Below, in pieces: positions 35,855 through 46,685 of a stretch of 48,863 nucleotides of DNA. The notes below the pieces were generated by a model. That model had not been told where the DNA came from. It saw only the letters and a list, made by a program, of their open reading frames with translations, and made no database searches. The translations under genes were made by a program, and so were the position numbers. Position 1 is the first letter of the stretch. Each line of letters starts with the position of its first letter. Origin of the DNA: an uncultured Bacteroidia bacterium (GTDB lineage Bacteria > Bacteroidota > Bacteroidia > Bacteroidales > F082); contig CAJVWU010000022.1 in NCBI GenBank assembly GCA_913009755.1, positions 1 to 48,863 on the forward strand. The letters run 5' to 3'.

Positions 35855-38800
35855 TTAACCGGCATCAAGATTACGAAATTTCAGGGTAAAAACAGTGCCG
35901 TTGTCTTTTTGTGATTCGAAGCTGATTTCACCCCCGATTTCCTGCACAATATTTTTTACAATGGCCAGGCCCAAACCTGTTCCGGTGGACCTTGTGGTAA
36001 AATAGGGTTGGAATATTTTCGATTTTTGTTCATCGTCAATACCCTTTCCATTATCCAAAATGGTAACAATTATAAACTGATCTTTGGCTTCCAGTGAAAT
36101 GTTTACAGTGCCTTTTTTGTTTTTTTCTATTGCCTGTATTGCGTTCTTAATCAGATTGTTAAAAAGCCTTAGCAGGTCTTTTTCAAATGCAAGGGTAAAA
36201 TAACGCTCTGTTATATCCGCAGGTTGGTAGCTGATGTCAACAGGGGTATTATTCTTAAAAAGCTGAACCGATTCGCGAATGACTTTCCCCAAATCCACAT
36301 TTTCAAAATTCCTGACCCTGGTTTTGGCCAGGTCCGAAAACATTTCAGCTACTTTATCCAATGACTCTATCTGGCTGATCAATGAATTGCTGATGCTTTT
36401 CACTTTTTCATCCAGGTCCGGATCCTTTTCCCTGAAGGCTTTATCAAGGTATTGAACATTCAGTTTCATGGGTGTTAACGGATTTTTAATCTCATGCGCA
36501 ATTTGTTGGGCCACTTCCCTCCAGGCACTTTCCCGCTCCGATTGTTTGAGCAATTCGGCACTGTGTTCAAGTTTATCAATCATCTTATTATATTCCGTAA
36601 TCAGCTTCCCAATCTCATCTTCATTTGCCCATTGAATCGGCTTGTTGGGTTTATCAATCTGAATGGAAGCTATGTTCTCCTGAAGTACTTTTAAAGGCCG
36701 GGTAATAATTCTGGAAAACGCCACGGCTATGACGGTTCCGATAATGCCAAGAAAAACAAAGAGATTTATAAAAGTAAATATCATCAGATAATAAGCCTGT
36801 TTAACCTCGGTTTGCTTGGCAAAGTAAGGCAGATTAACAATTCCGGCCGTATTGTCCCCTCCAAGCTCAAGGGGTGCATAAGATGAATAATAGGACACCT
36901 TCCCGATTTTCTCTTGTGTAAAATAGAAAAGCCTGCTTTTTACCATAATTTCTTCATAAGCCATCGGATTAATATTTTCGGAAAGCAGCCCCAAATTGAA
37001 TATTTCCGGTCTTGAAGATGCAATAAGCTGTCCTGACGGACTGTACAGGTTGATGTCGGTGAAAAATACTTTTGAAAATTTGAGCAATATTTTTTCCAGT
37101 TGGGGTTGGTCAATTGTATTAAGGTTTTGCCCCCCTCCTATTTTATGTTGCAATTCGATGATTACAGAGTTTGTTTTTTCATTCAACTGTTCAATTAGTT
37201 TATTCTCATTGCTTTGTTTTACATAATATAAAGTAATGACTGCCAGTATGATAATTATAAATGATATGGTTGAAATGAAAATTAATTGTAATCGTGTTTG
37301 AAAACTTGACCTTAAAAGTTTCGGCACATCTTTACTGTATAAAAACATTAGAACCATTACGATGGTGATTGCAAATACAAAAAACAATACCGAAAAAGAA
37401 AGCAATTGTACCGATAACTTTGTGTAGGGCCGGCTTACGACAAGATAATCCCCGTTTGCCATTTTTAGCTTATAATGTAAATATCTGTCTATGTGAAAGA
37501 ACTGTTTTTCAGGATATTTTGCTAAATATTTTAAGTTGGTGTGGTAAGGGAAACTACCGAATTTATAGATTAATATATCCTTGTGATATCTTGCATAAGA
37601 GTAATTTGATAAATCCAGATTGTTGTTTGTACGATTTGCAAGAAGTTCGGGATATCCGATGCCCTCAGGAATGAATTTATAGTAAAATTCGAGATAGATA
37701 TTAACAAACCCGCTTGGGTCGTTTTTGTCCGGATAAGTAAGTTTTGCAATGTAATAAATGCTTTCCGGGTCTGAATTTAACAAATACAGTATCGGTGATT
37801 TTGTGCCGGTTCCAAATTCACTGATCAGTTTCTCAAAATAACCGGAACAATCCGAAACAATACCTTCAGGCTGAATTTCGAGTAATTCACCTTTTTGACA
37901 GAGTGTAACCTGGATATCATATTTTTTACTGATCTCCGGAAAATATTTAGTTGATACATACTGTTTAATTTCTGACTCAACGTTTATAACCTCCTGATCA
38001 ATAATTTTAATAATATGTCGGTCCTGTTTTAATTCTTTGTCTAACCTGATAAATTTATTTTCCAATTTATCGTCATGGGTTACACTTAATAATTCAGCCG
38101 TTTGTTTCAAATGCAAGTTTTTCTTTTGCTGTTCCGATATATTGATTATCAAAGCTATTGCCGCTGAAAACAAAATAATAACCAACAAATATTTTAAAAC
38201 ATTTATCCTTTGTTCCCGTGTTGAAAATCTGATTATTAATATCAGAAGCAACACGAAAAAAGTGGTTGTTAACGGAAGTATAAAACTCTCTGAATATAAA
38301 AGGAAAACGATGGATCCGAAAAGAATAAACATAAAAACATGCAGCCCGTAAGGAACAGGTATTTTTAAAATATGGCTTCCCAGTGCCCTGCCGATAAAAT
38401 ACAAAGACGATGAAAACAACAGGATGGAAAACAAAGACAAGAAGTTATTTATTCCATTCACTTCCACACCGAAAAAAGAGTTGAACGGAAGGTTTTGTAT
38501 TAATTGAAATAGGTAAACAAAAATTAAAAAAGAAACAACCCATAAAGCCAAATCCCATATTATCAATAGGATACGCAGTTTGTTGATTTTCAGTGAAGAA
38601 ATATTAAAGTTGAAATTCCTGAATAAGTTCACAGCCAAAAACAAAACCAGGATCCCGGTTATTATCTGGTCTCCCGGAGAATTTAAGCCGGGCGGCATTT
38701 CCTGGTATGGTGAAAATAAAAACGTTTCTTTTAAGACGAATGGAAAATGAAAATAATAATCGGCAAACCTTAATATCAGGAGATCAAAAAACAAGAAAAA

Positions 38801-39478
38801 CCAAAGAACTATCGTATTTTTTACAGGAAATTTATTATTCTGATAAACACTGTTAATTCCCAGGGCAATAAACAGATAAACCAAAATATAAAGCAAGAAC
38901 AGAACCAGTGTGAAGGGTTTGGACAGGGTGTTGTTTTCCCCTGAAATTATTCCAAATAAAAATTTCCCATTATTATTGGTAATGGTATAATCTGCTTTTG
39001 TTCTATCCAGCGTCAAATGAAACTCTTCAGAATCAATGTGATGAACGCACCGGAAAACATTTTTGAACAAATAAATATTGAAATCATTATATTCCTTGTT
39101 TACAACAAGATACCACGTGGATTGATTTTGATAAATATTTTTGTTCCGAAAATCCAAATAATGAATATCATTAGGTATTATGTTGTTGTTCCAGAAGATC
39201 AAATGATCGTTTTGATAAACAAGGGCAAGTAACTGATCCTCATTGACAGTCCTTTCAAGTTTCGGCCATAAATTTTGTTTGTTAGTATCAATATGATCAA
39301 GCAGGTTTTCTACTTTGATCATCCGCTTATTAAGCCCACTTAATGATCTTTGAATTTCTGTACTTATTCGTTTTACCTGTACACCTTTTTGTGAATCAGC
39401 GTAATAACAAACTACGGCAAATGTAAAAACTGTGATGACAGCCAGCAGGAAAAATCGAAGTGTTTTTTTATTAAGCAT
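35855..39478 (-). CDS. Large membrane sensor histidine kinase, NtrY-like
   Basis: ATG 39478 (MLNKKTLRF) is preferred; an in-frame GTG lies two codons upstream. The protein of about 1207 residues has an N-terminal helix, an extracytoplasmic region, a block of about eight to ten helices (residues about 195-460), a second extracytoplasmic region, two more helices near 700-770, a third outer region and a helix leading to HAMP (SRIITRPLKVLQENIASI, about 935). The His-containing box is AHEIKNPLTPMKLNVQYL (His about residue 997), followed by the ATPase with NNLIKNAIQAI, DNGKGID and TGTGLGLAIVKNI. The NPLTPMKL form is typical of NtrY-type kinases. No response regulator gene is near. The stimulus is unknown. 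Confidence 0.92.
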   Translation of the reverse strand: MLNKKTLRFFLLAVITVFTFAVVCYYADSQKGVQVKRISTEIQRSLSGLNKRMIKVENLLDHIDTNKQNLWPKLERTVNEDQLLALVYQNDHLIFWNNNIIPNDIHYLDFRNKNIYQNQSTWYLVVNKEYNDFNIYLFKNVFRCVHHIDSEEFHLTLDRTKADYTITNNNGKFLFGIISGENNTLSKPFTLVLFLLYILVYLFIALGINSVYQNNKFPVKNTIVLWFFLFFDLLILRFADYYFHFPFVLKETFLFSPYQEMPPGLNSPGDQIITGILVLFLAVNLFRNFNFNISSLKINKLRILLIIWDLALWVVSFLIFVYLFQLIQNLPFNSFFGVEVNGINNFLSLFSILLFSSSLYFIGRALGSHILKIPVPYGLHVFMFILFGSIVFLLYSESFILPLTTTFFVLLLILIIRFSTREQRINVLKYLLVIILFSAAIALIINISEQQKKNLHLKQTAELLSVTHDDKLENKFIRLDKELKQDRHIIKIIDQEVINVESEIKQYVSTKYFPEISKKYDIQVTLCQKGELLEIQPEGIVSDCSGYFEKLISEFGTGTKSPILYLLNSDPESIYYIAKLTYPDKNDPSGFVNIYLEFYYKFIPEGIGYPELLANRTNNNLDLSNYSYARYHKDILIYKFGSFPYHTNLKYLAKYPEKQFFHIDRYLHYKLKMANGDYLVVSRPYTKLSVQLLSFSVLFFVFAITIVMVLMFLYSKDVPKLLRSSFQTRLQLIFISTISFIIIILAVITLYYVKQSNENKLIEQLNEKTNSVIIELQHKIGGGQNLNTIDQPQLEKILLKFSKVFFTDINLYSPSGQLIASSRPEIFNLGLLSENINPMAYEEIMVKSRLFYFTQEKIGKVSYYSSYAPLELGGDNTAGIVNLPYFAKQTEVKQAYYLMIFTFINLFVFLGIIGTVIAVAFSRIITRPLKVLQENIASIQIDKPNKPIQWANEDEIGKLITEYNKMIDKLEHSAELLKQSERESAWREVAQQIAHEIKNPLTPMKLNVQYLDKAFREKDPDLDEKVKSISNSLISQIESLDKVAEMFSDLAKTRVRNFENVDLGKVIRESVQLFKNNTPVDISYQPADITERYFTLAFEKDLLRLFNNLIKNAIQAIEKNKKGTVNISLEAKDQFIIVTILDNGKGIDDEQKSKIFQPYFTTRSTGTGLGLAIVKNIVQEIGGEISFESQKDNGTVFTLKFRNLDAG

Positions 39479-39537
39479 GATCACTGACCTATGAATTGTT
39501 TAAGATTAAAGACAACGGTCAAAGCTGTTAAAGGTAA

Positions 39538-40431
39538 TTATTTTTGCTTTGCAACAAATATCATGCTTGAATAGTTATTATTTTTTTTGGCTTTTTTATT
39601 CGAAACAAAGCCATTGATAATTGCAGGTAAATAAGGAATTTTGCGATGCTTATAACCTTCACTTAATAATGAAACATAATACGCGTCAAATAACATCGGT
39701 TTTTTATCAATTATTGTTAAGCCATGATTTTCAAGCAACAGGCTTAATGTTTTCGGGGAAAAATGATAAAGATGTCTGGGGACATCCAGTGCTGCCCATT
39801 TTTCTCTGTATTTATAAAAATCGGGTGCTTCTATATTGGGTACTGCGATGACGAGATAACCATACTTTTTCAATCCCTTTTTTATTTTTTGTAACGTTGC
39901 GTTCAGATCGGGAACGTGTTCAAGCACATGCCACAACGTAATGACATCAAAACTGTTCTCCTTTAGTTTTTTTAAATGTTTTTCATCATAAATAGCAATT
40001 TGATATGTGTTGACCGCAAATTTTCTGGCATCCTCATTGGGTTCAATACCAACAACATTCCATCCTTTCTTTTTAAAATAATTCAGCAGTTCGCCGGTAC
40101 CCGAACCAATGTCAAGAATGTTGTTCCCCTTGCCAAATTGCTTTACAAGTTTAAATTTCCTCCGGATATTAATGGATCGTAAATATTGATAGACAAAATC
40201 CTTCAGGTTCCGTTTGCGTGCAGTATGCGAAAGGTAGTCGGGTGATTGGTAATATTTTGACAGGTCATGATCAGGCGGCCTGGGATTTGTGAAAACAAAG
40301 GAGCAGGATGAGCATTTAACGAGTTTGAAGTTTTCTTTTGTTAAAAAATAATCTTTTGTATCCAGAAACAGTTCAAACTGATTTGAATTACATATTGGAC
40401 AATTGTATATATATTTTTCTGTCTGTTCCAC
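39538..40431 (-). CDS. Class I SAM-dependent methyltransferase with N-terminal zinc-ribbon-like motif
   Basis: The 297-residue protein begins with paired Cys motifs (CPICNSNQ and CSSCSFVFTNPRPPD) that probably bind zinc, followed by a Rossmann-type methyltransferase domain: NILDIGSGTGELLNYFKKKG (motif I, about 104), VVGIEPNEDARKFA, and VITLWHVLEHVPDLNATL. This is the Methyltransf_23 type often used for small-molecule or glycan-related methylation. The start codon is GTG at 40431, within a parS-like sequence; no good ATG is close enough to keep the CPIC motif. It is the gene after mnmG in the run. The substrate is unknown. Confidence 0.83.
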   Translation of the reverse strand: MEQTEKYIYNCPICNSNQFELFLDTKDYFLTKENFKLVKCSSCSFVFTNPRPPDHDLSKYYQSPDYLSHTARKRNLKDFVYQYLRSINIRRKFKLVKQFGKGNNILDIGSGTGELLNYFKKKGWNVVGIEPNEDARKFAVNTYQIAIYDEKHLKKLKENSFDVITLWHVLEHVPDLNATLQKIKKGLKKYGYLVIAVPNIEAPDFYKYREKWAALDVPRHLYHFSPKTLSLLLENHGLTIIDKKPMLFDAYYVSLLSEGYKHRKIPYLPAIINGFVSNKKAKKNNNYSSMIFVAKQK

Positions 40432-40439
40432 GTGAAACC
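40424..40439. other. parS-like site (second copy)
   Basis: The sequence TGTTCCACGTGAAACC is a 14/16 match to the parS sequence TGTTTCACGTGAAACA; the fifth base is variable in the known consensus, leaving one real difference. It lies between mnmG and the methyltransferase gene and includes that gene's GTG start codon. Confidence 0.65.
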
Positions 40440-40443
40440 TAAA

Positions 40444-42315
40444 TTAAACTCTTCCGATAAATACAGCCAATACATTAATATCTGAAGGGGATACCCCGCT
40501 TATTCTTGATGCCTGCCCTAGTGTTCCCGGCCTGATCTTATCTAATTTTTCGCGTGCCTCGTAAGATAATGATTTCAGGCTGAAATAATCAAAATCCGGC
40601 TTTAACGGTATCTCTTCAAGTTTGGCCATCTTTTTTGCCATTTCCTGTTCTTTCGATATATAACCCTGATATTTTATGAGAATTTCAACTTCTTCTAAAA
40701 TTTCATCGTCCAGTTTATTATCGTTAATAAAATTTTGAAGTGCAGTATTTACACGGATAAGATGGTTAATATTTATTTGTGGCCGAAGAAGAAGGCCCGA
40801 CAATTTTATCTTTTGTTTTAAGGGGTTGGTTCCGTTTTCAATCAATAGAGTATTGATTTCATCGGGGGAAATGCTGTTTTGTTTTAAGTAGTTTTTCAGC
40901 AACCCGGTTTGATCTTTTTTCTTGATTACACGTTCGTAACGTTCTTTACCTGCCAAACCGATTTCATAAGATTTGGGCGTTAACCGTAGATCAGCATTGT
41001 CCTGCCGCATCAATATCCGGTATTCGGCCCTTGAGGTGAACATACGATAGGGTTCATCAACGCCTTTTGTAATAAGATCGTCAATCAGTACACCAATGTA
41101 TGCTTCCTCGCGTTTTAAAATAAATGCAGGCTTTTGACGAATTTTTAAATGTGCATTGATACCTGCCATCAAGCCTTGTGCAGCCGCTTCTTCATAACCG
41201 GTTGTTCCGTTAATTTGTCCGGCGAGGTAAAGATTTTCAACCAATTTCGTTTCAAGCGTATATTTTAGCTGAGTAGGAGGGAAGTAGTCATATTCAATAG
41301 CATATCCCGGCCTGAAAATTTTTGCGTTTTCAAAGCCGGAAATCTTGCGAAGTGCTTTAAGCTGAATGTGATCAGGCAAAGAGGAGGAAAATCCGTTAAC
41401 ATAATATTCTACTGTGTTCCATCCTTCGGGTTCAACAAAAAGCTGATGACTTGATTTATCGGAGAAACGTTCTATTTTATCTTCAATGGAAGGACAATAC
41501 CTGGGGCCAACCCCTTTTATCCTGTCATTAAACAACGGGGATTCGCTAAATCCAAGTTTTAGTTCGTCATGCACAATGGGAGAGGTATAAGTAATCCAGC
41601 AACTTTTTTGGGTTTGAAGTTTTGATTTCTTCAGAAATGAAAAATTTCCCGGATTTTCATCACCCTTTTGTTCCTCCATTTTTGAAAAATCGATGGTTCT
41701 TCCATCCACCCTTACCGGTGTTCCCGTCTTTAGCCTTGCCGATTCAAATCCCAAAGAAACCAAATCCTCAGTTAAACCTTTTGAATCCGGATCCCCAATT
41801 CTTCCGCCGGCAAATTGTTTTGTGCCTATATGGATAATTCCGTTTAAAAAAGTGCCATTGGTTAAAATAACCGATTTTGAATAAATGGTAAGCTGCATGG
41901 CCGTTTTTACTCCAATTACACTACCGTTTTCAAAAACAAGTCCGGTTACTATGTCCTGCCAAAAATCAAGATTTGGTGTTTTTTCCAACATTCTGCGCCA
42001 TGCTAAAGAGAAAAGCATCCTGTCGTTTTGAGCACGCGGACTCCACATGGCAGGCCCTTTTGATTTATTCAGCATCCTGAACTGAATCATCGTTTTATCA
42101 GTTACCAATCCGCTGTATCCTCCCAGTGCGTCAATTTCCCGGATAATCTGGCCTTTGGCTATTCCACCCATTGCGGGATTGCATGACATTTGCGCAATGG
42201 CATTCAGGTTCATGGTAATTAATAATACTTTTGAACCAAGATGAGCAGCGGCAGCAGCAGCTTCTGAACCGCTGTGTCCGGCACCGACTACTATTACATC
42301 ATATTTTTCGAACAT
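40444..42315 (-). CDS. mnmG: tRNA uridine-5-carboxymethylaminomethyl modification enzyme MnmG (GidA)
   Basis: MnmG, with MnmE, modifies the wobble uridine of several tRNAs using FAD. ATG 42315 ([16 protein letters not shown]) is chosen; the frame opens from a TTG at 42339 that lies in the parS site. The FAD-binding [17 protein letters not shown] is at about residues 11-27, followed by the family signature [22 protein letters not shown]. Near the middle are the [12 protein letters not shown] and [20 protein letters not shown] motifs. The C-terminal helical region ends [24 protein letters not shown]. Length (623) is standard. It lies 24 bases downstream of ybeY on the same strand; the gap contains the perfect parS site. 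Confidence 0.97.
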
Positions 42316-42322
42316 GGATTCT

Positions 42323-42338
42323 TGTTTCACGTGAAACA
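42323..42338. other. parS site (perfect 16-bp consensus)
   Basis: TGTTTCACGTGAAACA is identical to the palindromic chromosomal parS sequence bound by ParB/Spo0J. It fills most of the 24-base gap between ybeY and mnmG. In many bacteria parS sites cluster near the origin, and mnmG (gidA) is a common neighbour, which supports an origin-proximal position. No parA or parB gene is in the window. Confidence 0.88.
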
Positions 42339-42339
42339 A

Positions 42340-42768
42340 TCAGGAATTTTTCAGGGAGAGCAAAGATAGATAATTATTCTCTTTTTGACGCATTTCATTT
42401 TTTTCATCAGGGGCATGGTCACCATATCCCATTAAATGTAAAATGCCATGAACCATTACCCGTGCTACTTCGGAAATAAAAGTATCTTTTCGGTTTTTAC
42501 TGTTCTCTTTCACTCTTTCAATGCTTATATATATTTCGCCAGAAATAATATTATTTTTTTTTGAAGTTGAAAATGTAATAATGTCCGTATAATTATCGTG
42601 ATTGAGGAATTTTTTATTTATCTCAATCAGGTAATCATCATCACAAAAAATATAGAAAATGTCACCTACAGAAAATTTTTCTTTACAAACAACCTCTTTA
42701 AGCCACTGTTTAAAAAGATCAGAAGGGAAGTTTTTTAATGTTTTCGGGAGGCCTGAAAAACGAATCAT
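42340..42768 (-). CDS. ybeY: Endoribonuclease YbeY (rRNA maturation)
   Basis: YbeY is a zinc-dependent single-strand endoribonuclease needed for 16S rRNA 3' maturation and ribosome quality control. The 142-residue protein has the family motif HGILHLMGYGDH with its three histidines (about residues 110-121). An earlier segment, KKFLNHDNYTDIITF, is typical of the family. It begins three bases after the upstream degenerate GHKL gene ends and its stop is adjacent to the parS site. Length is standard for the family. Confidence 0.95.
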   Translation of the reverse strand: MIRFSGLPKTLKNFPSDLFKQWLKEVVCKEKFSVGDIFYIFCDDDYLIEINKKFLNHDNYTDIITFSTSKKNNIISGEIYISIERVKENSKNRKDTFISEVARVMVHGILHLMGYGDHAPDEKNEMRQKENNYLSLLSLKNS

Positions 42769-42771
42769 AAA

Positions 42772-43254
42772 TTAATTGCCGCGGACCTTTTGAGTTGTTT
42801 TTGCCCTGAAGAATGTTTGTAATTTATTTCGCCTGTCTTCAAAGACTTCATTGTGCAAAGCACCAACCTCGAAAACGAATGTTACTGCATTATCGCTTTT
42901 TAAAACGATTTCGTCCACAAGTTTTTTAATGATATATATCTTTTTGTTTTCCTCGTTGTCCAAAACATTTTTCAAATCAATCTTTCTGTCCAGAATAACG
43001 ATTAATTCATCGGACACAGACTGTATTTTAACCTTAGCTTGTTGATTTCCAGGCTTATACGTAAGTTTAACCCCTATTCCTTCCTGATAATTAGGGATTA
43101 AGCTTATGAATTCTGTCAAGGACATTAAAATATTACCATAGTAAGTTTCACTGATTTGAAACTGACTAAATAATTTGTCAACAAATCCCTCAATTTGCGT
43201 TATGGATTTTGGGTCAATTGTACTGACCAAAAATTCCTTCTTTTTAGTTGCCAT
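42772..43254 (-). CDS. Degenerate GHKL (RsbW-like) ATPase-domain protein
   Basis: This 160-residue cytoplasmic protein aligns along its length with small RsbW/HATPase_c_2-like ATP-binding proteins that I know from the same position in Bacteroidetes. The alignment is recognisable in the helix before the N-box (IEGFVDKLFSQFQISETYYGNILMSLTE) and in the segment after the G2 box (YIIKKLVDEIVLKSDNAVTFVFEV). However, the N-box, which should read like TEAVNNAIxHGN, reads TEFISLIPNYQ here, the G1 box DxGxG is absent, and the usual GRGIFLM of the G2 box reads NKKIYII. It therefore probably cannot bind ATP in the usual way. It sits between the DUF4175 gene (11-base overlap) and ybeY (three-base gap). 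Confidence 0.75.
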   Translation of the reverse strand: MATKKKEFLVSTIDPKSITQIEGFVDKLFSQFQISETYYGNILMSLTEFISLIPNYQEGIGVKLTYKPGNQQAKVKIQSVSDELIVILDRKIDLKNVLDNEENKKIYIIKKLVDEIVLKSDNAVTFVFEVGALHNEVFEDRRNKLQTFFRAKTTQKVRGN

Positions 43255-46200
43255 GTTCCCTTATAAATTTATACTTATACTTTGATAACAACTTGTTGTA
43301 GTATGGCGACATTTCAATAGGAACGGTTAAAATAATCTCTTCTGTCTTCGTTTTAGGTTTATTTACATCTTCAAAAATAAACTTTTTGTTGGATTTCCCA
43401 ACATTTTTACCTTCTTTTGATTCACGTTTTCTTTCTTTTTCCCTCTCCATTTGTGCCTTTTCTGACCGTAACAATCTGACTTCTATGCGATTTTGCCTCT
43501 CCAGGGTTTCTTGAGAAATTTTTCTATTTATTATATCTTTTTCTGTTTTTTCCATCTCTTTTATCAAATCATTCAGTGAATTTCCAGTTCCCTGGTTATT
43601 TTTCATTTGATCTATATACTCTTGCAGCCTCTTTCTTATCTCACTTTGCATAGCTGCCATCCGTGCTAATTTTTCACTATTTCCATTGATCCCGTCTTCC
43701 CCTTTCGCCCCTTGCGACTTAGCTCCCGGCTTCATACTTTTATTCAATTTACCCTGCATCTGACTTAATTGTTGCAACGAAGGCATTTGCCCCTGACCCG
43801 GAGTCTTACATTGTTGACCAGGTTTGTTTCCTGACATTTGCATACTCATTTGCATTTTGTCAAGTGATTCGGAAAGCATTAATGCCAGATTGTTGATTGA
43901 AGTCATTGCATATTGTTGATGACTTAACGCCGGCCCGGTTTTTCGGTCTTGCATTTGTGAAGTGGCTTTATTCAGGTGGGTCTTTATTTTTTCGGTTTCT
44001 TTTACAACAAAAGGCTGGATCATGATCTGCCGTTTGCTAATGGCAAGTAATGAATCGTGAACAATTTGAAAATCGTCATTTATCTGTTTTATCTTTTCTA
44101 TATTTTCCGGGTATTTTGGGTCGTTTTTTGAGGTCGCGGATACATCGCCCATTACTCTTTCAAGTTTAAAACTTAAATCGATCAGGTTGTCCAATATTTT
44201 CTTAATCTTTTCTGCATCTTCGCCCATACGTGCCTGCATGGCCGATTGCATCATCATGCTCAGGTTTTTGGCCATCTGCTTCATTTTTGATCCGGCCTGT
44301 GATTGATTTTGGGAAGCTTTTTTTGATTTTCCCTGTTCCAGATTATTGGATGCATCGTCCAACTGCATATCTATTGCCTTCATTTCCGATGTGTCGGCAT
44401 TGAACTCAAAAGGCTCTTCAAGTTCATTGTTCAGCTTTTCAGCTTCATCTAAGTTTTTCTTAATTTGTTCAAAGTTTTTGCTGATTTTGTCCTGCTTTTC
44501 AATCGCCTGATTTTTATCACTGTTTTTTTTACCTTTTGTTTCCTTAGCCAGATCATTTTGTCTGTCAGCCAGCGAATCTAATCTGTTAATAGTTTCTTCC
44601 AATTGTTTTTGGAATTCATACTGTTTGTATAATTCCAGGTTTTGATCGAGGCTTGTTTTTAGGTCATCGTTCTTTTCTTTCAAATTATCCAATAATTTCT
44701 TGAGCTTATCCTTATTTATCTTATCGAGTTCCTTTTTCATTTTTTCCAACTGCTGCTCATATTTCTTGTCAGCGAGGTCATTAAACATTTGATCCAACCG
44801 ATCGGTTTTTTCTTGCAATTGCCGGCTTTTTTCTTCATTCACCAAATTTTCGAGGTCATCAATCTGGTTATTCAAACGGTTTAGCTTTTGTAAGTTTTTT
44901 TCAATTGCCAATTGTTTATTAAGCAGCTCCGCCAATTGTTGCTTATCAGCCCAGGTCAATTCTTTTTTGTCAAATAAATCTTTTTGCTTTTCGTCAATTT
45001 CACGATTTATTTTATCCAGTTCATCAAGCGTTTCCTTGATTTTACGTTTCACCTGTTCAGATTTTTCGGCCAGTTTATTTTCAATCTCGGAAACGTCCGG
45101 CAGGTAAAGATACAAAATGGGGCTTCTTGCTTTTTTATATCCGTTTATGGCGTCATTATCACGGACTTCAAAAAAATAGCTCATACTTTCTCCGGGTTTT
45201 AATCCTAATTCATGGGTTAAGAAAGCATGGCTAAACGATTGTTTGGGGATATCGGGGTTGAAAGAAATACTTTGTTGTTTCCAGTTTGTGTTTTCCTGAT
45301 CTTCTTTTTTATAGAAAAATTTCAATGAATGAAATCCGTAATCATCGCTAATGACACCGGTAAAATAAAGGTTTCCGAAAAGGGATTCATCCTGTGCCTG
45401 GTTTACTTCAATTGCAGGATACTGATCTTTAATTACCTGAACGGAAAAATTTAACGAGTCTGAATTTTTAACAAATTGGTTTTCCGCCATCAGCGTATAA
45501 TAAAAATTACTGTTTGCTTTTGTGGAATACGTGAATGAATTGCCGTTGCCTGAATTCAGGATGATTTTTTGATCCCCTTTTTTGAAAATAACATGACGTG
45601 CATCTTTTGTGTAAATCGTCCAGGTAATCTGGCTGCCTTCGGGAACGATAATATCCCCGGAATTTTGAATAATGTCCGTTTTCTTTTTCAGGTAGGCAGG
45701 ATAAGTGAGTTTTACATCAAAACTGAAAATGACAGGTTTTGGAAAAACTTTTATTTTGTACTTTTCACTTAAGTAATCATCTGTTTTTAGCTGAAACCAG
45801 ATGTCATTATTTAAATCTTTGAAAGTGTACTCATATAATCCGGGTTTTAGCTCCGCCATCCGGTAAACATAAATGCCGTCAGTTACACTGACCCCGTCCG
45901 GCACCTCATCTCCCGTGATTTTTACCTTCAAGGTAAAATCTTCGTGTTGCAATGTTTCCAACTTTGAATTCAGGATGGTAAGCTGATAAGGCAAAGGCTT
46001 TTCAAAATAAGCCGAATGATGGACAATTCTTGTTGAAGGTCCTATAATAAAGGCCGGGGAAATAATCATTATCATAAAAATTATGATAACCGGGGGGATG
46101 AAATATCTTAAATATTTTTTGTTTTCCTTAAGTTTGATAACATTTTTAAACGGAACAGGAGTAAGTGCAGCAGATTTTTGCTCAATGCCGGCAATCAAAA

Positions 46201-46588
46201 GATCCATCTCCCTTTTCCCGCTTAATTCACGAACCTGATTTTTTAATTGTAATACATTGAGCAGCCGGTCGCTTACTTCCGGAAAATGACGGCCAATGAT
46301 GAGCGCTGCGTCTTCATTAGAAATTGTGTCACCGATATGAAGAATTTTAAAAAAAGGGATGATCACATAATAAACAAAAACACCCGTAACAATAGCAATG
46401 AAAGAATAAAAAATAATTGTCCGCGCAAGAACACTACTCCAGGAGAGATATTCCACCAGATCAACAGCAAGAAACAGTGTAACAATGATGGAAAGACTGA
46501 GTATCAAGCCCCGTAACATCTGGTTTTTGTAATATTTTTTTACAAACCCCCGAATCTTTGTCAGCAATATGTTAAAATCGTTTTCCAT
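43244..46588 (-). CDS. DUF4175-type membrane and coiled-coil protein
   Basis: ATG 46588 (MENDFNILLTKIRG) is preferred, since the longer frame begins with a TTG upstream of the -7 box. The protein has about 1114 residues. Three hydrophobic helices lie near residues 25-45, 52-78 and 170-190, then a beta-rich outer region (residues about 200-500) and an extended coiled coil (ENKLAEKSEQVKRKIKETLDE, KEELTWADKQQLAELLNKQLA). Gln/Met-rich helical repeats (QMQMSMQMSGNKPGQQ) follow before the C-terminal tail. The layout and N-terminus match the DUF4175 family of Bacteroidetes, whose function is unknown. The gene is first in the run with the degenerate GHKL gene, ybeY and mnmG. Confidence 0.8.
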   Translation of the reverse strand: MENDFNILLTKIRGFVKKYYKNQMLRGLILSLSIIVTLFLAVDLVEYLSWSSVLARTIIFYSFIAIVTGVFVYYVIIPFFKILHIGDTISNEDAALIIGRHFPEVSDRLLNVLQLKNQVRELSGKREMDLLIAGIEQKSAALTPVPFKNVIKLKENKKYLRYFIPPVIIIFMIMIISPAFIIGPSTRIVHHSAYFEKPLPYQLTILNSKLETLQHEDFTLKVKITGDEVPDGVSVTDGIYVYRMAELKPGLYEYTFKDLNNDIWFQLKTDDYLSEKYKIKVFPKPVIFSFDVKLTYPAYLKKKTDIIQNSGDIIVPEGSQITWTIYTKDARHVIFKKGDQKIILNSGNGNSFTYSTKANSNFYYTLMAENQFVKNSDSLNFSVQVIKDQYPAIEVNQAQDESLFGNLYFTGVISDDYGFHSLKFFYKKEDQENTNWKQQSISFNPDIPKQSFSHAFLTHELGLKPGESMSYFFEVRDNDAINGYKKARSPILYLYLPDVSEIENKLAEKSEQVKRKIKETLDELDKINREIDEKQKDLFDKKELTWADKQQLAELLNKQLAIEKNLQKLNRLNNQIDDLENLVNEEKSRQLQEKTDRLDQMFNDLADKKYEQQLEKMKKELDKINKDKLKKLLDNLKEKNDDLKTSLDQNLELYKQYEFQKQLEETINRLDSLADRQNDLAKETKGKKNSDKNQAIEKQDKISKNFEQIKKNLDEAEKLNNELEEPFEFNADTSEMKAIDMQLDDASNNLEQGKSKKASQNQSQAGSKMKQMAKNLSMMMQSAMQARMGEDAEKIKKILDNLIDLSFKLERVMGDVSATSKNDPKYPENIEKIKQINDDFQIVHDSLLAISKRQIMIQPFVVKETEKIKTHLNKATSQMQDRKTGPALSHQQYAMTSINNLALMLSESLDKMQMSMQMSGNKPGQQCKTPGQGQMPSLQQLSQMQGKLNKSMKPGAKSQGAKGEDGINGNSEKLARMAAMQSEIRKRLQEYIDQMKNNQGTGNSLNDLIKEMEKTEKDIINRKISQETLERQNRIEVRLLRSEKAQMEREKERKRESKEGKNVGKSNKKFIFEDVNKPKTKTEEIILTVPIEMSPYYNKLLSKYKYKFIREHGN

Positions 46589-46639
46589 GGACAACCTTAC
46601 CTTGTAATCGTGTGTCTGAACCTTAGAATTAAATATTCT

Positions 46640-46647
46640 TACTTTTG
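46640..46647 (+). promoter_or_regulatory. -7 promoter box of the M1 aminopeptidase gene
   Basis: TACTTTTG is a perfect TAnnTTTG match on the plus strand. The transcript would begin near 46653, leaving about 20-33 bases before the two possible ATGs (46674 and 46686). No clear TTG is at the expected -33 position. Confidence 0.55.
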
Positions 46648-46648
46648 G

Positions 46649-46656
46649 CAAATATA
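46649..46656 (-). promoter_or_regulatory. -7 promoter box of the DUF4175 operon
   Basis: TATATTTG on the minus strand (46656-46649) is a perfect TAnnTTTG match, giving a leader of about 50 bases to ATG 46588. It is one base from the plus-strand -7 box of the divergent gene, so the two promoters must compete for polymerase. Confidence 0.55.
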
Positions 46657-46685
46657 TTATCAATTACTATAACATGAATATAATT

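Follow-up and report, generated by a model that had tools for sequence, protein, structure and literature searches.

Two palindromes of 16 bp flank mnmG (gidA) in a stretch of DNA of 48,863 nucleotides from an uncultured Bacteroidia bacterium, hereafter the window. What are they for and, if they are centromeres, why would selection tie a centromere to one tRNA-modification gene? Our reading is that the pair are predicted chromosomal parS sites, that mnmG lies in the origin region and that mnmG–parS is probably the remnant of an ancestral origin cluster. We put the probability of this reading, as judged from sequence, at about 0.9.

Two palindromes at the ends of mnmG

The features concerned are listed in Table 1. 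The original prediction, made from the letters of the window, held that a perfect palindrome fills the gap between ybeY and mnmG and that a close copy covers the start codon of the gene after mnmG. Both proved correct. Site 1 (42323–42338) lies within the 21 bp ybeY–mnmG gap (42319–42339), 4 bp upstream of the mnmG ATG (42318); the longest mnmG open reading frame begins at TTG 42339, but the profile match agrees with the ATG instead. Site 2 (40424–40439) lies 4 bp past the end of the mnmG stop codon (40444), spans the GTG (40431–40429) of the next open reading frame and fits the NGTTYCACGTGRAACN form known from mnmG of relatives.

Table 1. Features at the mnmG locus (positions in the window).
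Feature	Position	Strand	Remarks
Class I SAM methyltransferase, N-terminal CPxC motif	39538..40431	-	PF13489, 103.9 bits; GTG start within site 2
parS site 2, TGTTCCACGTGAAACC	40424..40439	.	Predicted; two-mismatch copy of site 1
mnmG (gidA), 624 aa	40444..42318	-	TIGR00136, 822 bits (cut-off 525)
parS site 1, TGTTTCACGTGAAACA	42323..42338	.	Predicted; perfect consensus palindrome, 16 bp, ybeY–mnmG gap
ybeY, upstream neighbour	42340..42768	-	TIGR00043, 103 bits

Sites of this kind are rare. With up to three mismatches allowed, the window holds three matches against 0.32 expected from shuffling, and three were reached in two of 100 shuffles. The genome is a draft of 4.05 Mb in 165 contigs (98% complete), and the NGTTNCACGTGNAACN pattern occurs in it at two sites only, both at mnmG, with none for the reversed control; a composition model gives a genome-wide expectation of 0.05–0.18 sites. 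At up to three mismatches there are 35 sites in the genome versus 22 for the control, and the 33 beyond the pair all carry three mismatches.

The binding site of Noc (NBS) is a ATTTCCCGGGAAAT-type site, and Noc has residues Q173 and R201. The present pair and its protein do not correspond to this arrangement: the parS bases are kept in the site, and the R and G are kept in the protein.

A search for parA and parB, proposed in the original prediction as a check, returned a single ParB, encoded by an overlapping parA–parB pair of open reading frames on contig 31, a contig other than that of the window (contig 22). The products match ParB_N, HTH_ParB and ParB_C, and the AAA_31 ATPase, of Pfam. 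By sequence, the nearest solved structures to this ParB are ParB and Noc proteins. It carries GERR (the CTP motif), GKNR and MGHAR, the last two supplying the equivalents of R173 and G201 in Caulobacter numbering, which was carried over by motif matching. Position 184 is Lys and position 179 is Phe, both variable among ParBs. According to the accessible text of PMC7383237, R173 and G201 are absolutely conserved in ParB orthologues and altered in Noc. The genes of interest are scattered over draft contigs whose relative order is not given, with dnaA on contig 16, parAB on contig 31, rsmG on contig 65 and the window on contig 22.

Recurrence at mnmG and the place of the origin

We take the order to be Bacteroidales and the phylum Bacteroidota from the titles of the named mnmG loci, the closest of which are from uncultured Bacteroidales (71 and 69% identity). 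The NGTTNCACGTGNAACN pattern is present in 127 of 149 genomes of the order (that of the window included), mostly in one to three copies, and absent from 22. Among the matches listed, which cover 44 order genomes including that of the window, no more than 150 bp separates 62 of 75 sites from the mnmG match (48 to its 3′ side, 14 to its 5′ side). All but one of these 44 genomes (the exception being G071) have a site within that distance, and 11 have sites on both sides of mnmG, as in the window. In 25 of the 30 best-scoring mnmG loci of the order a perfect site is no more than 200 bp away; in a further locus it is at 253 bp, one has one-mismatch sites only and three have none.

The motif is absent from 12 of the 13 assemblies that have no mnmG match over the cut-off, versus ten of the 136 that have one (p = 5e-11), a joint absence partly explained by low completeness. 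ParB itself scores over the cut-off in 139 of the 149 order genomes. It is retained by 17 of the 22 motif-negative genomes and absent from five of them, versus five of the other 127 (p = 0.007), a weak tie that is confounded by completeness. Three assemblies more than 90% complete (G018, G044 and G100) have neither mnmG nor the parS pattern, and the mnmG–parS region may drop out of draft genomes. Two loci of family f2, L039 (genome G001) and L040 (G120), have a normal ParB and an intact mnmG with no exact parS pattern. At L039 a drifted palindrome with a TTTTCACGTGAAAA core abuts the mnmG start and is repeated about 0.6 kb further on, possibly reflecting a shift in ParB specificity.

In the wider samples the link between parS and mnmG holds in most genomes, with clear exceptions. 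The pattern occurs in 184 of 198 sampled genomes of the phylum (that of the window included), the other 14 being without an exact copy. For the 26 genomes of the class with matches listed, 39 of 73 sites are 150 bp or less from mnmG, and 19 genomes, from families f121, f123 and f127, have such a site. The seven departures are five f124 and two f128 genomes. In G220 the distance is 158 bp, 8 bp over the 150 bp rule, in G314 it is 27 kb and in G326 118 kb; in G185, G212 and G306 parS is on contigs other than that of mnmG; for the seventh, G310, the place of mnmG is not among the matches listed. In four of the f124 genomes (G185, G212, G306 and G326) parS is away from mnmG, a natural experiment on whether the origin followed it.

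A site within 150 bp of mnmG was also present in ten of 13 further complete genomes, the departures being G178 (357 bp), G260 (507 bp) and G327 (12 kb). Exact sites are missing from two more complete genomes, G181 and G339, the latter having two one-mismatch sites at mnmG. For six other complete genomes (G191, G200, G207, G211, G254 and G321) the place of mnmG is not among the matches listed.

The best 30 mnmG loci of the phylum, 23 of which belong to family f141, all have a site with at most one mismatch within 460 bp. A set of 80 named mnmG loci (1.48 Mb) was also assembled; all are titled Bacteroidota, with titles from Bacteroidales, Flavobacteriales, Cytophagales, Chitinophagaceae, Sphingobacterium, Pedobacter, Saprospiraceae and others. 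A perfect site lies within 200 bp of mnmG in 61 of these, and a site with at most one mismatch in 67. Seen from the side of the motif, 101 of the 127 perfect sites in the set are within 200 bp of an mnmG end, with none for the reversed control, and 32 of the 46 near 3′ sites begin 0–10 bp after the stop codon. The 13 named loci with no site (at most one mismatch) within 200 bp include two, L207 and L233, that are cut near or inside mnmG. The usual copy number of parS is one to three. Arrays of four to nine perfect copies are packed into the roughly 1.2 kb before mnmG in Flavobacterium sp. MC2016-06 (L179), Terrimonas ferruginea (L201) and Chitinophaga solisilvae (L173), that of L179 being interspersed with one-mismatch copies.

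Does mnmG then lie near the replication origin? Among ten complete genomes of the class, its distance from dnaA is 0.75–1.8 Mb in nine (G133, G177, G181, G205, G243, G251, G266, G282 and G318) and about 14 kb in the tenth (G150). It ranges from 25 kb to 1.0 Mb in the seven complete genomes of other classes for which both places are listed. In several of the complete genomes examined the sequence starts at dnaA.

Raw GC skew was rejected as an origin locator: it agreed with the mnmG interval in two genomes (G133 and G266) and missed it by about 0.5 Mb in a third (G251). Gene orientation picked out the mnmG interval in G266 only. Since both measures were noisy they were replaced by the GC skew of four-fold sites, corrected for coding strand. 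It was taken from 20 stretches of 20 kb per genome and fitted with two levels, at a resolution of about 200 kb. Six genomes in single contigs, with dnaA 0.37–1.6 Mb away from mnmG, were used: G133, G205, G243, G251 and G266 of the class and G213 of another class. The fitted origin fell within the mnmG interval (rank 1 of 20) in G266, G205 and G213 and one interval off it (mnmG interval rank 2 of 20) in G133, G251 and G243, with R2 at the mnmG interval of 0.45–0.73. The dnaA interval ranked 9 (G133), 12 (G251), 14 (G266), 9 (G205), 16 (G243) and 5 (G213) of 20. The GC-skew switch, which the original prediction had named as a further check, is thus at or next to mnmG in all six complete relatives, a result that concerns relatives only. 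In the window there was no excess of DnaA-box-like sequences (61 versus 64.9 expected).

That the Bacteroidetes oriC is commonly far from dnaA is stated in the available text of PMC4755523. The available text of PMC10197239 uses parS clusters together with GC skew to place the ori of 12 gut bacteria (two Bacteroidetes among them); read coverage and Hi-C diagonals back the placement, which does not always coincide with dnaA. In its Hi-C maps, Bacteroides caecimuris included, parS clusters lie where the secondary diagonal crosses. In the portions available, an oriC adjoining mnmG is predicted for Mariniflexile litorale (PMC11278836, in which one figure legend has its labels swapped) and for Algorimicrobium strain KMM 8389 (PMC12843772). 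These two cases resemble ours in being mnmG-linked, supported by GC skew and from Bacteroidota, and that of Mariniflexile is explicitly not at dnaA. They differ in being single-genome Ori-Finder predictions, and the same portions mention neither parS nor a wider rule. Searches of an open-access library gave no earlier report of a phylum-wide link between parS and mnmG.

The proposal that the pair marks a centromere-like region near oriC is strongly supported by the sequence of the sites, their rarity, their recurrence at mnmG, the parA–parB operon and the GC skew of relatives.

Neighbouring genes and alternative readings

Conserved synteny accounts only partly for the placement of parS, and the site tracks mnmG more faithfully than the neighbouring gene does. 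In 49 of 74 sequences (window included) the gene directly preceding mnmG belongs to the ybeY cluster. Downstream, 24 of 79 sequences have a singleton gene and the largest family has 21 members (window included), in a table built on ATG starts only, from which neighbours started by GTG or TTG may escape and in which the downstream gene of the window appears as a histidine kinase. Of the 80 named loci, 21 have a gene similar to the methyltransferase of the window directly after mnmG. Where the 3′ site is tight (33 named loci), several families follow mnmG: a methyltransferase like that of the window in 11 loci, another family (resembling, by eye, adenine phosphoribosyltransferase) in six, singletons in five and other genes in 11. 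Further out in the window are a sensor histidine kinase of 1209 aa (35855–39484), whose cluster near mnmG has four members, and a large DUF4175 protein (43244–46663), whose cluster occurs close to mnmG in 36 of 81 sequences (window included in both counts).

The original prediction also proposed that site 2 links ParB binding to expression of the methyltransferase gene. In such an arrangement the sites would be real parS and the downstream copy would let ParB regulate the methyltransferase by way of its start codon (METHYLTRANSFERASE). The overlap is probably real: read by eye in the window, the GTG in site 2 is the sole ATG, GTG or TTG upstream of the CPxC motif, and L202 has the same layout with a similar gene. 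Promoters beside some parS sites of Pseudomonas are, reportedly, repressed by ParB. The proposal was not supported, however, since the site stays while the gene that follows mnmG varies among loci. Nor does the overlap recur in general. At 74 tight 3′ sites, drawn from 128 loci, we looked for frames of 100 codons or more at the embedded GTG. Such a frame is present in 22, of which 19 are rsmG of family f141; outside the RsmG-like group the count is three of 55, and the other two frames give four and eight long frames among all 74 sites. Twelve of the 60 loci L039–L098 had no perfect 3′ site within 20 bp and were left out (L039, L040, L052, L060, L065, L084, L087, L088, L089, L092, L093 and L094). 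In our view the overlap arises because the intergenic gap is short, and control of the methyltransferase through it is improbable.

It is very unlikely that the palindrome is instead a transcription-factor operator, serving mnmG through the upstream copy and the methyltransferase through the downstream one, with no role in partition. One copy just upstream of mnmG and another on a GTG start codon are placed as operators might be, and the recurrence of similar methyltransferases noted above is in keeping with this. Nevertheless, 29 of the 44 order genomes with matches listed have exact sites (within 150 bp) on the 3′ side only, the site persists when the downstream gene changes, the exact pattern occurs nowhere else in the genome and so defines no regulon, and the sequence is the canonical parS consensus.

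Least credible is that the palindromes act in RNA at the ends of mnmG, as a hairpin, terminator or attenuator, although an inverted repeat does stand near the stop codon in many genomes. In 101 near sites the variable pair, read on the mnmG-sense strand, is CG in 51, TA in 17, CA in 17 and TG in 16; the symmetric half-sites are modestly enriched (45 CG and 11 TA expected were the half-sites to vary independently, p = 0.008) and a third of the sites are asymmetric. A symmetric excess is equally expected from a symmetric protein dimer or from copied sites, the C–A combination would break the stem in 17 of the 101, and sites also occur upstream of mnmG and within the rsmG coding sequence. The operator and the hairpin were accordingly rejected, in view of the missing regulon, the 3′-only sites and the stem-breaking C–A sites.

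A proposed ancestral origin cluster and rsmG

How might parS have come to stand at mnmG? The genes of the ancestral origin, in the available text of PMC2099444 (citing Ogasawara and Yoshikawa 1992), are gidA, gidB, parA, parB, rnpA, dnaA and others. As mnmG, gidA is a member of this cluster, and families f141 and f139 keep rsmG (gidB) right after it. The genome of the window differs in that rsmG, parAB and dnaA are on other contigs and mnmG alone stays with parS. An RsmG-like gene was present in the fetched mnmG flank of 24 of 140 loci, the other 116 having none. Family f141 accounts for 23 of the 24 loci and f139 for the other (L093); neither family belongs to the class. The two RsmG-like proteins tested both match PF02527. 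In the complete order genome G133, rsmG and mnmG are 769 kb apart.

With parS interpreted as a partition site, its position at mnmG would follow because mnmG is in the origin region of these chromosomes. A ParB dimer would read each parS through its helix-turn-helix and load there as a CTP-dependent clamp; the clamps would slide outward across mnmG and its neighbours, building a partition complex, and ParA would separate the duplicated complexes. The simplest history, suggested by two families, would be an ancestral cluster mnmG–parS–rsmG(–parA–parB) that the other members left. The mnmG–parS pair is probably its remnant: dnaA, rsmG and parAB would have moved off, with parS remaining at the mnmG ends, the ancestral order resting on the same two families.

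The system resembles the ParABS of Bacillus subtilis Spo0J and Caulobacter crescentus ParB in its TGTTTCACGTGAAACA-type 16 bp palindrome and single parAB operon, in the CTP motif and parS-specific residues of ParB and, in relatives, in having sites near the skew origin. Unlike those systems, there are here two sites only, at mnmG, on a contig separate from parAB and dnaA.

Taken as sites, the two palindromes are of a common type in a striking location; what merits following up is how widely parS is anchored to mnmG, exceptions included. On balance we favour the view that in most Bacteroidota parS is fixed to the mnmG ends and that mnmG–parS, rather than dnaA, marks the origin, as a survivor of the ancestral cluster. 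The pair would have kept its position, often 0–10 bp from the stop codon, and may serve as an origin marker for draft genomes and metagenome bins. If this is true, mnmG with an abutting parS would locate the origin in drafts and improve growth-rate estimates from read coverage, in a phylum that is abundant in guts and in the sea and in which dnaA can be more than 1 Mb from the origin. The sites also provide exact targets for work on ParB occupancy in Bacteroidota.

A final observation concerns the f141 loci. An in-frame GTG of rsmG lies inside the 3′ parS in 19 of them, and in the f141 loci read closely a second parS occurs about 150 bp downstream, within the rsmG coding sequence, in the frame VSRET. 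This second site reads Val-Ser-Arg-Glu-Thr in L086, L097, L077 and other loci of the family. The first parS of L097 supplies most of the codons at the rsmG start (Met-Phe-His-Val-Lys-His). Constraint on DNA and constraint on protein here fall on the same bases.
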